A stretch of 64,000 nt of DNA from NCBI RefSeq assembly GCF_016125575.1, contig NZ_WGLM01000005.1, positions 744,001 through 808,000 on the forward strand, read 5' to 3'. Shown one piece after another: positions 4,310 through 56,252 of this stretch. This stretch comes from Limimaricola sp. Lineage in GTDB: Bacteria > Pseudomonadota > Alphaproteobacteria > Rhodobacterales > Rhodobacteraceae. Below the pieces are notes generated by a model that saw nothing but the letters and a program-made list of their open reading frames with translations, searched no databases and was not told the DNA's origin. The translations under genes were made by a program, and so were the position numbers. Every line of letters starts with the position of its first letter. Position 1 is the first letter of the stretch.

Positions 4310-7291
4310 ATGGCGAAGGGGCCGTCAGTCACCATCACAGGTGGAGCGAAGGACGACACGCTCTTCGGCAACTACCTCGACAACTACATCTATGGCGGCA
4401 ACAACACCGACCCCGCGCGGGGCACGGGCAACGACACGCTTTACGGCTTTGCCGGCAACGACGTGCTGTTCGGCGGCATGGACAACGACGTCCTTTACGG
4501 CGGCGACGACAACGACACGCTCTATGGCGGCGTCGGCAACGACTGGCTGTCGGGCGATGCCGGCAACGATACCCTCTACGGCGAGGACGGCAACGACACG
4601 CTTTTCGGAGGCACCGGCAACGATATCCTCGATGGCGGCACCGGCGATGACACGCTCGATGGCGGCGCTGGAACCGATACGCTGCTAGGCGGCGCGGGAA
4701 GCGACATCCTCTATGGCGGCGATGGCGCCGACAGCCTGTCGGGCGGCGACGGGGCCGACCTGCTTTACGGCGGCGCCGGCGACGACACGCTCGACGGCGG
4801 TGCGGGCAGTGACACGCTTTATGGCGATGCAGGCAATGACACGCTTTACGGTGGCGGTGGTGCTGACACGCTGATCGGTGGCGGCGGCAACGACGTGATC
4901 GACGGGGGTGCCGGCGACGACGTGATCCACGGCGACAACGCTACCGCACCGACGACAGGAACGGAAACCCTCCAGTGGAGCCTTGAGGGCAACTGGACCA
5001 ACGTGACCAGCGGTTTCACCCAGAACACCGGCGGAATGAACGTCACCTACAGCTATCAGGACGATGGCAACGGGACGGCCGCCTATATCACGAACACCAC
5101 CGAATATGTCGGCCCGGGCGAGCCGACCGCGACCAATTCGGGCCTGTGGATTCAGGGCTATGGCGGTGGCAATACCTCGACCAGCACGCTGACCTTCGAT
5201 CCAACTGCCGATTCCGGCCTTGCCAGTACCGTCTCGGGCGTGTCGTTCCGCCTCAACGATATCGACACCGGCACTTTTCAGGACATCGTCACCGTCCGCG
5301 CCTACGACGCCGCGGGCAACCTGATTCCCAACGCGGTCACCATGGTGGCCTCGGGCAACGACAGCGTCAGCGGCGGCACCGTGACCGCCGGGCCCGGCGG
5401 CGACAACCCCAACGATGCCAACGGGTCCGTTCTGGTCAATGTCGACGGCCCGGTTCACTCGATCCAGATCGATTACGACAACGGCGGTTCCGGCAACCAG
5501 TATCTTTACGTTACCGACGTCAGCTTCAACACGCAGGCGGCCGTCGACGGCAATGACAGCATTGACGGCGGCGCTGGCAACGACCTGATCTACGGCGACG
5601 GCGGCAACGACACGATTGACGGCGGCGCTGACAACGACACGCTCTACGGCGGCGACGGCAATGACAGCCTGTCGGGCGGCACAGGCAACGACACGCTTTT
5701 CGGCGGTGCTGGCGCGGACACGATCGCCGGCAATGCCGGCGACAACATGCTTTATGGTGGGGCCGACAACGATACTTTCGTCGTCGATGCCTCGGCCGAG
5801 AACGACACCATCGTCGGCGGTGAGACCGGCATCGACAACGACGTCATCGACTTTTCGACAACCGCGACCGGCGGCGTCAACGTATCCCTGACGGGGAACG
5901 AAGCCGGCACCTATGGTTCGACCACCGCCGCAACCAGCGGCAGCTTTTCCCAGATCGAAGGCTTCAACCTCACCAATCAGGCCGATACCTTTGACGGTTC
6001 GGCTGCGACGGCCGGCGTTTCGGTCGATGGCGGCGCGGGCGACGACAGCCTGATCGGCGGGTCTGGCGACGACACGCTGCTTGGCGGCACCGGCAATGAC
6101 ACGCTGCAAGGCGGCGCCGGGGCTGACGTGCTCAACGGCGGCCAAGGCATGGACTATGCCGATTACAGCACCTCGGGCGCCGCTGTGAATATCGACCTTG
6201 GCGCGGGCACCGCCTCGGGCGGCGACGCGCAGGGCGACACGCTGAACGGCATCGACGGTCTGATCGGCTCGAACTACGACGACACGCTGACCGGTTATGA
6301 CGGCCAGGGCACCACGGGCGACATCTATACCAACATCTTCTACGGCGGTGGCGGCAACGACACGCTGATGGGCATGGGTGGCAGTGACACCTTGTACGGT
6401 GGCACCGGCAACGATGTCATCGACGGCGGCGCAGGCGGCGACCTGTTGTCGGGCGACGCGGGCAACGACAGCATCACCGTGGGCACCGGCGATCAGGCGT
6501 TCGGCGGCAGCGGCGACGATACTTTCCTCTGGCAGGGCCCCGATGCCGTCAGCAACACCACGATCGAAGTCTGGGGTGGAGAGACGACGGAAACCGGGGG
6601 CGACACGCTGAAACTCGGCGCGCTCGACGGATTCGCTTCGCACATCACCTACACCTCTCCCGACCACGAATCCGGCATCGTCGATCTGGGCAACGGCAAT
6701 ACGCTCGTCTTCCACGAGATCGAGAACATCATCTGCTTCACGCCCGGCACACGGATCGCGACGCCGCAAGGCGCGCGCCCGGTCGAGACGCTGAAGGTGG
6801 GCGACCTTGTGGTCACGCGCGATCACGGGCTGCGCCCGGTGCGCTGGGTCGGCGCGCGGACCGTGCCCGCGCTGGACCGTTTCGCGCCGATCCGCCTGCG
6901 TCCCGGTGTAGTGTCGGGGCTGGAGACGGACCTGCTGGTCTCGCCCCAGCACCGGATGCTGTTCACCGGCTATCGCGCGGAACTGCTTTTTGGCACGTCC
7001 GAGGTGCTGGTCGCGGCCAAGCACCTCGTCGACGGCACCTCCGTCACCGTCGAGGCCGGCGGCAGCGTGACCTATATCCACGTCATGTTCGACGAGCACG
7101 AGATCATCTATGCCGAGGGCGCCCCGAGCGAGAGCTTTCATCCCGGCCATATCGGCCTGTCGGCAGTCGGTGACGCCGCGCGCGAGGAATTGTTCACGCT
7201 GTTCCCGGCCCTGCGCAGCGCGCCCGAAAGCTATGGCGCCACGGCACGGCGCGCGCTCAAGGCGCGCGAGGCGGGGCTGATCCGCGGCTGA
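4310..7291 (+). CDS. RTX calcium-binding repeat protein with C-terminal Hint domain
   Basis: A 993-aa, very Gly/Asp/Asn-rich protein with no N-terminal signal peptide. RTX nonapeptides (G-G-x-G-x-D-x-L-x) fill residues about 10-212, 413-500, 573-612 and 675-740. A non-repeat, beta-rich stretch lies at about 215-410. A Hint-type domain starts at C809 (C-F-T-P-G-T) and runs to about 950, with V-G-D-L-V and S-P-Q-H-R-M-L motifs. RTX repeats fold on Ca2+ outside the cell, and such proteins normally leave by type I secretion; no exporter is nearby. Hint domains in Rhodobacterales RTX proteins may be autoprocessing or degenerate. Function is unknown: adhesin, surface-layer or enzyme carrier are all possible. 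Its 3' end overlaps the opposite CPBP gene by 35 bases. Confidence 0.92.
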   Translation: MAKGPSVTITGGAKDDTLFGNYLDNYIYGGNNTDPARGTGNDTLYGFAGNDVLFGGMDNDVLYGGDDNDTLYGGVGNDWLSGDAGNDTLYGEDGNDTLFGGTGNDILDGGTGDDTLDGGAGTDTLLGGAGSDILYGGDGADSLSGGDGADLLYGGAGDDTLDGGAGSDTLYGDAGNDTLYGGGGADTLIGGGGNDVIDGGAGDDVIHGDNATAPTTGTETLQWSLEGNWTNVTSGFTQNTGGMNVTYSYQDDGNGTAAYITNTTEYVGPGEPTATNSGLWIQGYGGGNTSTSTLTFDPTADSGLASTVSGVSFRLNDIDTGTFQDIVTVRAYDAAGNLIPNAVTMVASGNDSVSGGTVTAGPGGDNPNDANGSVLVNVDGPVHSIQIDYDNGGSGNQYLYVTDVSFNTQAAVDGNDSIDGGAGNDLIYGDGGNDTIDGGADNDTLYGGDGNDSLSGGTGNDTLFGGAGADTIAGNAGDNMLYGGADNDTFVVDASAENDTIVGGETGIDNDVIDFSTTATGGVNVSLTGNEAGTYGSTTAATSGSFSQIEGFNLTNQADTFDGSAATAGVSVDGGAGDDSLIGGSGDDTLLGGTGNDTLQGGAGADVLNGGQGMDYADYSTSGAAVNIDLGAGTASGGDAQGDTLNGIDGLIGSNYDDTLTGYDGQGTTGDIYTNIFYGGGGNDTLMGMGGSDTLYGGTGNDVIDGGAGGDLLSGDAGNDSITVGTGDQAFGGSGDDTFLWQGPDAVSNTTIEVWGGETTETGGDTLKLGALDGFASHITYTSPDHESGIVDLGNGNTLVFHEIENIICFTPGTRIATPQGARPVETLKVGDLVVTRDHGLRPVRWVGARTVPALDRFAPIRLRPGVVSGLETDLLVSPQHRMLFTGYRAELLFGTSEVLVAAKHLVDGTSVTVEAGGSVTYIHVMFDEHEIIYAEGAPSESFHPGHIGLSAVGDAAREELFTLFPALRSAPESYGATARRALKAREAGLIRG

Positions 7292-53499: not shown

Positions 53500-54897
53500 T
53501 CAGAGCCGGGCCCGGACCTGCGCCGCGAAATCCTCGCCGCGCTTTTCGAAATTGTCGTACTGGTCAAAGCTGGCCGCGGCGGGCGCGAGCAGCACCACCT
53601 CGCCCGGCTGCGCCTCGGCCATCGCGCGCTCGACCGCGCGGGACATGGTGGTGCAGACCTCAGCCTCGACACCCGTCAGCTGGCGGGCGAAGGCATCAGC
53701 CTCGCGCCCGATGACGTAGGCCTTGGCGACCGCGCCCAGGTAGGGCAGCAGGCCGCCCAGCCCCCCCTCCTTCTCCAGCCCGCCGCAGATCCAGCGGATG
53801 CGCGAAAATGCCTGCAAGGCCTGCGCGGCACTGTCGACATTGGTGGCCTTGCTGTCGTTGACGAAGATCACCCCGTCCTTCTCGGCAATGCGCTGGCTGC
53901 GATGCGGCAGGCCCGGATAGGTCGCCAGCGCCGCCTCGATCGTCTTGGGGCCAAGGCCAAGGCTGCGGACGGCGGCATAGGCCGAGCAGGCGTTCTGGTG
54001 GTTGTGCCGGCCCGGCAGGCCGGGCACGGCGCGCAGGTCGATGCTGGCCACCTGCTGGCCATGACGCCATTCGGCGAGAAAGCCCTTCGACGCAAAGACG
54101 GACCACGCCGCCTGGGCCAGTTTGCGCGTGACAGAGACCGCGATCACCCTGTCATCTCCCGGCCCTTCGGCCATCTGGTTGGCAAGGTATCGCCCCTCGG
54201 CCTCGTCCACCCCGATCACCGCGCGATCGGGGCCACCTTCCGCGAACAGCCGCCGCTTGGCCGCGAAATAGCCGCCTAACCCACCGTGCCGGTCCAGATG
54301 ATCGGGCGACAGGTTGGTGAAGACGGCGATGTCGGGGGTCAGCGCGCGGGCAAGATCGGTCTGGTAGGACGACAGCTCCAGTACCACGACCTCGCCATCA
54401 CGCGCGGGCTCGATGTCAAGCACGCCGCGGCCGATATTGCCGGCCAGCTGCGTGGGCCGCCCGGCTTCGACAAGGATGTGGTGGATCAGCGCCGCCGTGG
54501 TCGATTTGCCGTTCGAGCCGGTGACGGCGATCACCCGCGGGGTCTGGTCGAAGTTGTCCCAGGCATCAGTCGCGAAAGAACGGAAAAACAGGCCGATGTC
54601 GTTGTCGACCGGCACGCCAGCCGCCCAGGCCGCGGCGATGGCCGGATGGGCAGCAGGATAAAGGTGAGGGATCCCGGGGGAGGTGACCAGCGCCGCCACC
54701 CCCTTCAGCGCCCCCTCACGGGACAGATCACGCAACGACAGCCCATCGGCCTCGGCCGCATCGCGCGCAGGCGCGCTGTCGTCCCACGCGATCACCTGCG
54801 CCCCGCCCGCCTGCAAGGCGCGCGCCGTCGCCCGGCCCGAGCGGCCCAAGCCCAGGACCGCCACCGTCTCACCGTCGTAGCCGCGTACCGGAATCAT
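53500..54897 (-). CDS. murD: UDP-N-acetylmuramoylalanine--D-glutamate ligase
   Basis: A 465-aa Mur ligase adding D-Glu. It starts [10 protein letters not shown] and has the ATP loop T-G-S-N-G-K-S-T-T and H-L-D-R-H-G-G-L near residue 213, and a C-terminal [15 protein letters not shown] 54897 follows AGAGGTG. The frame remains open upstream into repeat copy D, but that stretch is not conserved protein. It is the last gene of the first dcw block. Confidence 0.97.
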
Positions 54898-54970
54898 CAA
54901 AGCACCTCTGCCATTACCGCGCGAGGTTGACCGCAACCGCACAGCTTGCGCAAGCGCCCGAGGCGAGCTT

Positions 54971-55032
54971 GGGGGGCGCTGCCCCCCGTCCGCTGGCGCG
55001 GCCTCCCCCCGGGATATTTGCAAGGCAAAGGC
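54971..55032 (+). repeat. Hairpin-plus-tail intergenic repeat, copy D
   Basis: Hairpin GGGGGGCGCTGCCCCCC (54971-54987), 17 variable bases, then a 28-bp tail (55005-55032) identical to copy A. It lies in the 272-bp mraY-murD gap and faces copy E in inverted orientation, with the CtrA-like box between them. Confidence 0.72.
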
Positions 55033-55054
55033 GGGCCGGGCCTGGCCCCCTTGG

Positions 55055-55070
55055 TTAACGAACGGTTAAC
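55055..55070. promoter_or_regulatory. CtrA-binding site candidate (TTAA-N7-TTAAC)
   Basis: TTAACGAACGGTTAAC fits the full CtrA consensus TTAA-N7-TTAAC without mismatch, and is nearly palindromic (GTTAAC at each end). It lies between repeats D and E, 158 bases before murD. In alphaproteobacteria CtrA ties division and other genes to the cell cycle. The motif should be rare by chance at this GC content, but binding is not shown. Confidence 0.55.
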
Positions 55071-55074
55071 GGCT

Positions 55075-55138
55075 GCCTTTGCCTGCCAAGTATCCTCGGG
55101 GGTGAGCGCCGCAAGGCGCGAGGGGGCAGACAGCCCCC
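55075..55138 (-). repeat. Hairpin-plus-tail intergenic repeat, copy E
   Basis: On the minus strand the hairpin GGGGGCTGTCTGCCCCC (55138-55122), the same as in copy C, is followed by a spacer and a tail (55102-55075) related to copy D: 18 of 21 bases match over the GGATA...AAAGGC part. D and E form an inverted pair about 168 bp across. Confidence 0.7.
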
Positions 55139-55169
55139 TGCCCCGGCGGCTGCCGAGCCCCGCCGTTCC

Positions 55170-56252
55170 TCAGCGGACCTTCAGCGTGGCCAGCCCGATC
55201 ATCGCGAGGATCAGCGAGATGATCCAGAAGCGGATCACGATCTGCGGCTCGGCCCAGCCCTTCTTTTCGTAATGATGATGGATCGGCGCCATCAGGAACA
55301 CCCGCCGCCCGGTCCGCTTGAAGTAGAGAACCTGAATGATCACGCTCAGCGCCTCGACAACGAAGAGGCCGCCAACGATGGCCAGCACGATCTCATGCTT
55401 GGTGGCAACAGCGATCGCCCCCAGCGCACCGCCCAGTGCGAGGCTGCCGGTATCGCCCATGAACACGGCGGCCGGCGGTGCGTTGTACCACAGGAACCCC
55501 AGCCCGCCGCCCACAAGGCCCGCGCAAAAGATCAGCAATTCACCGGTATCGGGCACGTAATGCAGATCGAGATAGTCGGAGAAGTCGACCCGCCCCACGA
55601 AATAGGCGATCACCCCGAACGTGCCGGCCGCGATCATCACCGGCATGATCGCCAGCCCGTCAAGCCCGTCGGTCAGGTTCACCGCATTGGCCGCGCCCAC
55701 GATTACGACCATGGCGAAAGGCACGTAAAAGAGGCCGAGATTGACCAGCAGCCGCTTGAAAACCGGGAAGGCCAGATCACCGGACAGGTCCGCGGGATGC
55801 AGCCGCATGACGGCATAGCCCGCCAGCCCGGCAATCACGAGGCCCAGCAGCATCCGCACCCGGCCTGATACACCGGCCGAGGTCTGCTTGCGCACTTTGG
55901 CATAGTCGTCGGCAAAACCCAACGCGGCAAAGCTCAGCGTCACCAGCAACACCAGCCAGACGAAGGCATTGTCGAGCCGCGCCCACAGCAGGGTCGAGGT
56001 GGTCAGCGCCCCCACGATCAGCAGCCCGCCCATCGTTGGCGTGCCGGCCTTTGACAAATGGCCCTCGGGACCGTCCAGCCGGATCGGCTGGCCCTTGCCC
56101 TGTTTGCGCCGCAGCACGTTGATCAGCGGCTTTCCGAAGATGAAGCCGAAGACCAGCGCCGTCAGGAACGCGCCACCAGCCCGAAAGGTGATGTAGCGGA
56201 AGAGGTTGAAGAGGTCGCCGCCGTCGGACAGATGTGTCAGCCAGTAAAGCAT
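55170..56252 (-). CDS. mraY: Phospho-N-acetylmuramoyl-pentapeptide transferase
   Basis: A 360-aa membrane enzyme with ten helices that makes lipid I from UDP-MurNAc-pentapeptide and undecaprenyl phosphate. Active-site motifs [19 protein letters not shown] and H-H-H-Y-E-K-K-G-W are intact. Full length. It follows murF by five bases. Repeats D and E and a CtrA-like site lie downstream, before murD. Confidence 0.98.

Follow-up and report, generated by a model that had tools for sequence, protein, structure and literature searches.

A perfect CtrA-type box between facing repeats in the mraY–murD gap of a Limimaricola genome: probably an emptied copy of a candidate small-RNA cassette

The locus described here lies in a 64,000-nucleotide stretch of a Limimaricola sp. 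genome (hereafter the window) that carries part of the dcw cluster. Within it, murD starts at 54897 and mraY ends at 55170, both on the minus strand, so that the span singled out in a preliminary description of this DNA (54898–55169) is the whole 272-bp intergenic gap. The features of the gap and its flanking genes are as follows.

53500–54897, minus strand: murD, with the Pfam domains Mur_ligase_M and Mur_ligase_C
54924–54929, minus strand: CAACCT, candidate -10 element of a murD promoter, 19 nt after the -35 element; the CANNNT layout appears to recur in many relatives
54949–54954, minus strand: CTTGCG, candidate -35 element of the same promoter, 57 bp upstream of the ATG and outside the repeat frame
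54971–54987, plus strand: outer hairpin of repeat D, GGGGGGCGCTGCCCCCC; the C5 cassette described below is closed by the same type
55005–55032, plus strand: repeat D core CCCCCCGGGATATTT (55005–55019) and tail GCAAGGCAAAGGC; at least 41 BLAST matches in this genome
55054–55070, no strand assigned: double GTTAAC box GTTAACGAACGGTTAAC, of the CtrA type TTAAC-N5-GTTAAC, a direct repeat with an 11-bp period
55075–55101, minus strand: repeat E core CCCCGAGGATACTT (55088–55101) and tail GGCAGGCAAAGGC; 35 BLAST matches to E in this genome
55122–55138, minus strand: outer hairpin of repeat E, GGGGGCTGTCTGCCCCC, a type shared with the 5' frame of the C5 cassette
55170–56252, minus strand: mraY, an open reading frame with the Pfam domain Glycos_transf_4 and MraY_sig1; its stop codon forms the right edge of the gap

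Across the family the size of this gap is highly variable, from 4 bp to more than 1 kb, with several gaps carrying repeats of their own, which makes it a hotspot of variation. In some relatives it appears to contain whole extra genes, for example an SDR-like gene beginning MKTALITGGNRGIG.

At the centre of the gap, TTAACGAACGGTTAAC (55055–55070) matches TTAA-N7-TTAAC exactly on both strands and, because GTTAAC is palindromic, also reads TTAACCGTTCGTTAAC on the minus strand. The chance expectation for such a match is 0.01 in the 64-kb window, where GTTAAC occurs only four times, two of these being the box halves, 11 bp apart. The preliminary description, which had placed the box midway between two facing repeats, is borne out by the sequence and by the complementarity of the repeat arms (54982–55032 and 55075–55125; 51 nt, 71% complementary). 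Both TTAAC-N5-GTTAAC (PMC7232146) and TTAA-N7-TTAAC (PMC4046655) have been reported for CtrA-controlled promoters of Rhodobacterales. Genome-wide, TTAA-N7-TTAAC is no commoner than a reversed control (11 versus 8 strand hits), and the motif by itself therefore proves nothing. The genome encodes ctrA (C3:232640–233311, 93% to the query), and TTAAC and GTTAAC boxes lie within about 70 bp upstream of the ctrA start, a placement which suggests autoregulation. With the regulator encoded and similar boxes before its own gene, the window box is predicted to be one that CtrA could still bind. We also considered a CenR site and rejected it, as the CenR motif TGA-N8-TGA (PMC9275681) does not fit the box.

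Repeats D and E are copies of a large dispersed family which we found in this genome and across Rhodobacteraceae. Each copy combines a GC hairpin and another short stem with the core CCCCCGGGATATTT (variants CCCCCGAGGATATTT and CCCCCGGAGTATTT) and a tail of the type AAGGCAAAGG or AGAAGAAG; the tails of one genome resemble each other, and they differ from genome to genome. A strict pattern for facing pairs recovered head-to-head pairs in 29 of 198 family genomes and none with the reversed control. Judged with a crude codon-based gene caller, 28 of 30 copies are faced by the end of a neighbouring gene on one side or on both, and the 20 pair loci clearly classified with this caller comprise 14 between convergent genes, 6 between codirectional genes (the window among them) and none between divergent genes. 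Given this placement at gene ends, the repeats behave like 3'-end elements. GTTAA boxes are found 15–17 nt after the repeat core in the pair loci of this genome, and 36 of its 38 unpaired copies lack such a box within 60 nt. The repeat also matches 30 plasmid records, mostly of Rhodobacterales, at 80–95% in BLAST searches, and we found no relevant description of the family in the open-access literature, an earlier account of the repeat or of the RNA described below being possible. A further copy, inverted relative to D and 82% complementary to it over 62 nt, is present at 606–667 of the window. Elsewhere in the window, at 4373–6523, direct repeats of 27 nt and of the GGxGxD type form a long array that resembles an RTX-type calcium-binding repeat protein.

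A search for the repeat core together with GTTAAS matched 87 of 395 family genomes, and about half of the 30 loci that we read carry the conserved stretch GCGGTACAGGCGGGGACGCCGATGACCGC some 30 nt beyond the box. This stretch belongs to a candidate structured RNA, GCGGTACAGGCG-NNNN-CGCCGATGACCGC, which folds as a double stem (for example at L240:944–968, at L270–L299 and, in this genome, at C5:725292–725316, C2:135944 and C4:160768). The RNA motif is present in 284 of the 395 genomes, usually in one to four copies, with no hit for the reversed control, and in about 7 of 380 genomes from other families of the class. At three pairs of positions left free by the search pattern, all 43 sequences are paired and the bases covary (GC27/TA13/AT3, CG41/GC1/TA1 and GC28/GT9/AT6). 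Of 30 loci retrieved with the RNA motif as the sole query, 18 were framed by facing repeats on both sides, against a background of 1.5%, and 21 had TTAA at -33 to -25. An upstream profile over 33 loci reads YAAC-N5-GTTAACC-N9-CANNNT, with a -10 element at fixed spacing in 27 of the 33 (background 8%). This arrangement, with a site of the TTAAC-N5-GTTAAC type over the -35 region, is what one would expect where CtrA activates a promoter. The order of the cassette is repeat, promoter, covarying RNA hairpin GCGGTACAGGCGNNNNCGCCGATGACCGC and inverted repeat. Permutation tests on tail words showed sharing between left and right frames far above expectation (10.3 versus 6.6), weak sharing between left frame and internal part (5.6 versus 4.6) and only slight sharing between internal part and right frame (6.0 versus 5.5). 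Rfam returned no gathering-level match in the window and none among seven cassette-type loci, save for cobalamin riboswitches located elsewhere in two of these loci, and a BLAST search with one cassette against plasmids gave no match. We also considered a short open reading frame (ATGACC...) in the cassette; its frames mostly stay open and share no peptide past the first residues, and we therefore prefer the RNA reading. The repeat-framed small-RNA cassette appears to be undescribed so far.

The genome under study holds three intact cassettes (C2:135944, C4:160768 and C5:725292) and one that has diverged (C1:68496). The window copy is closest to the one on C5, with which it shares the outer hairpin types on each side and the order relative to the flanking genes; the 5' frames (AGGGGGCTGTCTGCCCCC...CAAAGGC(A/G)GCCGTTAA) are nearly identical and the closing frame is the same. 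Like the intact members, the window has two facing repeats and a GTTAA box at a fixed distance from the upstream core, beginning 17 nt after the E core, which is the offset found in C5. The RNA core GGTACAGG..CGATGACC is absent from the window centre and the -10 element is missing too, so that the locus is most likely an emptied copy rather than an intact member of the group. The C5 copy (GTTAAGGAAATCTTCAT) lacks the second GTTAAC seen in the window, and the box may therefore have been re-formed or favoured by selection once the body had gone; selection for CtrA binding following loss of the RNA is possible. A second empty framed box, at C4:781932, shows an equal distance between the tails (56 bp); the genes on its two sides converge, and a promoter there would have no gene to drive. 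None of about 70 short-centre pairs listed from other genomes contains a TTAAC box, which indicates that empty frames with a box are rare.

It is probable, in our view, that the window feature represents a repeat-framed small-RNA cassette which has been emptied, and not a switch that serves murD. An intact cassette is framed by two facing repeats of the dispersed family. A putative CtrA-type promoter lies immediately inward of the upstream one, and between this promoter and the closing repeat come a short structured RNA, whose double stem covaries, and then a variable hairpin. Of this arrangement the window retains both frames and the beginning of the promoter box, in the same orientation as in C5; the -10 element and the RNA body are missing. 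We infer that the body was lost here, not that it was never gained. Intact cassettes are probably transcribed, with CtrA as the likely protein that reads the box, and the frames presumably act at transcript 3' ends.

The preliminary description had taken the box for a perfect CtrA box and, tentatively, for a cell-cycle-controlled promoter of murD. The perfect TTAAC-N5-GTTAAC sequence, the presence of ctrA with boxes just before its own start and the survival of both box halves despite the loss of the RNA speak for this reading, and the first part of it stands insofar as the sequence fits the site reported for Rhodobacterales and the regulator is encoded; the proposed role at murD is not supported. 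No NANNNT -10 element lies at the box–promoter spacing on either strand of the window box (none of four contexts). Among relatives sampled at roughly one per genus, the full box is found in none of more than 60 readable mraY–murD gaps (those above 450 bp being covered in part), with single GTTAAC sites in a few, and in sister genera (for example L045, L046 and L067) the box is absent where the repeats are kept, an outcome that the preliminary description itself had named as counting against its proposal. Moreover, murD seems to have a separate promoter motif that is conserved in many relatives: CTTG occurs within -58 to -38 in 28 of 81 murD upstream regions (shuffled sequences: mean 5.2, maximum 12), its commonest position is -57, and the window has CTTGCG at exactly this position. 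The CTTGCG/CAACCT pair lies between repeat D and murD, about 100 bp nearer the gene than the box, and repeat D thus stands between the two. A murD promoter at the box is, in our judgement, unlikely.

We regard it as similarly doubtful that the locus is a plain REP-like pair of 3'-end hairpins that marks the end of the mraY transcript, with the AT-rich box serving only as the tip. The pairs do sit at gene ends and, among the classified loci, never between divergent genes; the centre of the gap folds as one long hairpin (-57.8 versus -41.9 kcal/mol for shuffles, z -4.1), in which the two GTTAAC sequences can pair with each other. However, a search for a stem with a T-run after it found none here, the box keeps a constant register at several of this genome's pair loci, and the halves of the box at C4:781932 are direct repeats (GTTAAG-N5-GTTAAG), which do not pair. 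For the earlier suggestion of an mraY terminator the placement holds, in that repeat E adjoins the mraY stop and the repeats sit at gene ends, but the T-run expected of such a terminator is lacking. That the box is simply an AT-rich spot in an intergenic gap would agree with a genome-wide motif count no higher than the control. This coincidence was already unlikely from the expectation in the window, from the constant place that the box takes with respect to the repeat core at several loci and from the framing of loci fetched by the RNA motif, and we give it very little weight.

The emptied-cassette reading can be set beside several known systems. The box has the same half-sites and spacing as the CtrA-controlled promoters of Rhodobacterales (PMC7232146, PMC4046655), and in intact cassettes the site overlaps the -35 region before a CANNNT -10 element, whereas the window copy, whose CtrA site is predicted, has no -10 element and is followed by no gene of its own. 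Like REP, BIME and REPIN sequences, the repeats are dispersed intergenic palindromes, single or in inverted pairs and mostly at gene ends, but they belong to another sequence family, with a common core and a genome-specific tail, and some pairs frame an RNA cassette. With intrinsic terminators they share GC-rich hairpins directly after stop codons, and differ in having no T-run after the stems. UpsM, from the dcw leader of R. sphaeroides, is likewise a small RNA with a link to this gene cluster in Rhodobacteraceae; it is found upstream of mraZ, has a Rho-independent terminator at its end (PMC5089854) and differs from the cassette RNA in place and in kind. CenR, another OmpR-type regulator linked to cell-wall genes, binds upstream of mraZ, ftsW and ddlA in the R. 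sphaeroides dcw cluster and recognizes a different motif (PMC9275681).

Finally, as a tentative and somewhat less secure extension, small RNAs driven by CtrA may form a family that is widespread in Rhodobacteraceae. Each would be enclosed by facing copies of the intergenic repeat of its own genome, and tails would be common to both frames and, less strongly, to the RNA. Such cassettes may have spread or been copied as units, and the mraY–murD gap would be an emptied site that still offers CtrA a landing place. The locus cautions against assigning the next gene as the target of a perfect transcription-factor box when that box lies inside a dispersed repeat. It also leads to a candidate small-RNA family that occurs in most of the sampled family genomes, matched no Rfam entry and carries a promoter architecture of the CtrA-activated type; if this is confirmed, the CtrA network of Rhodobacteraceae would gain a small-RNA arm.
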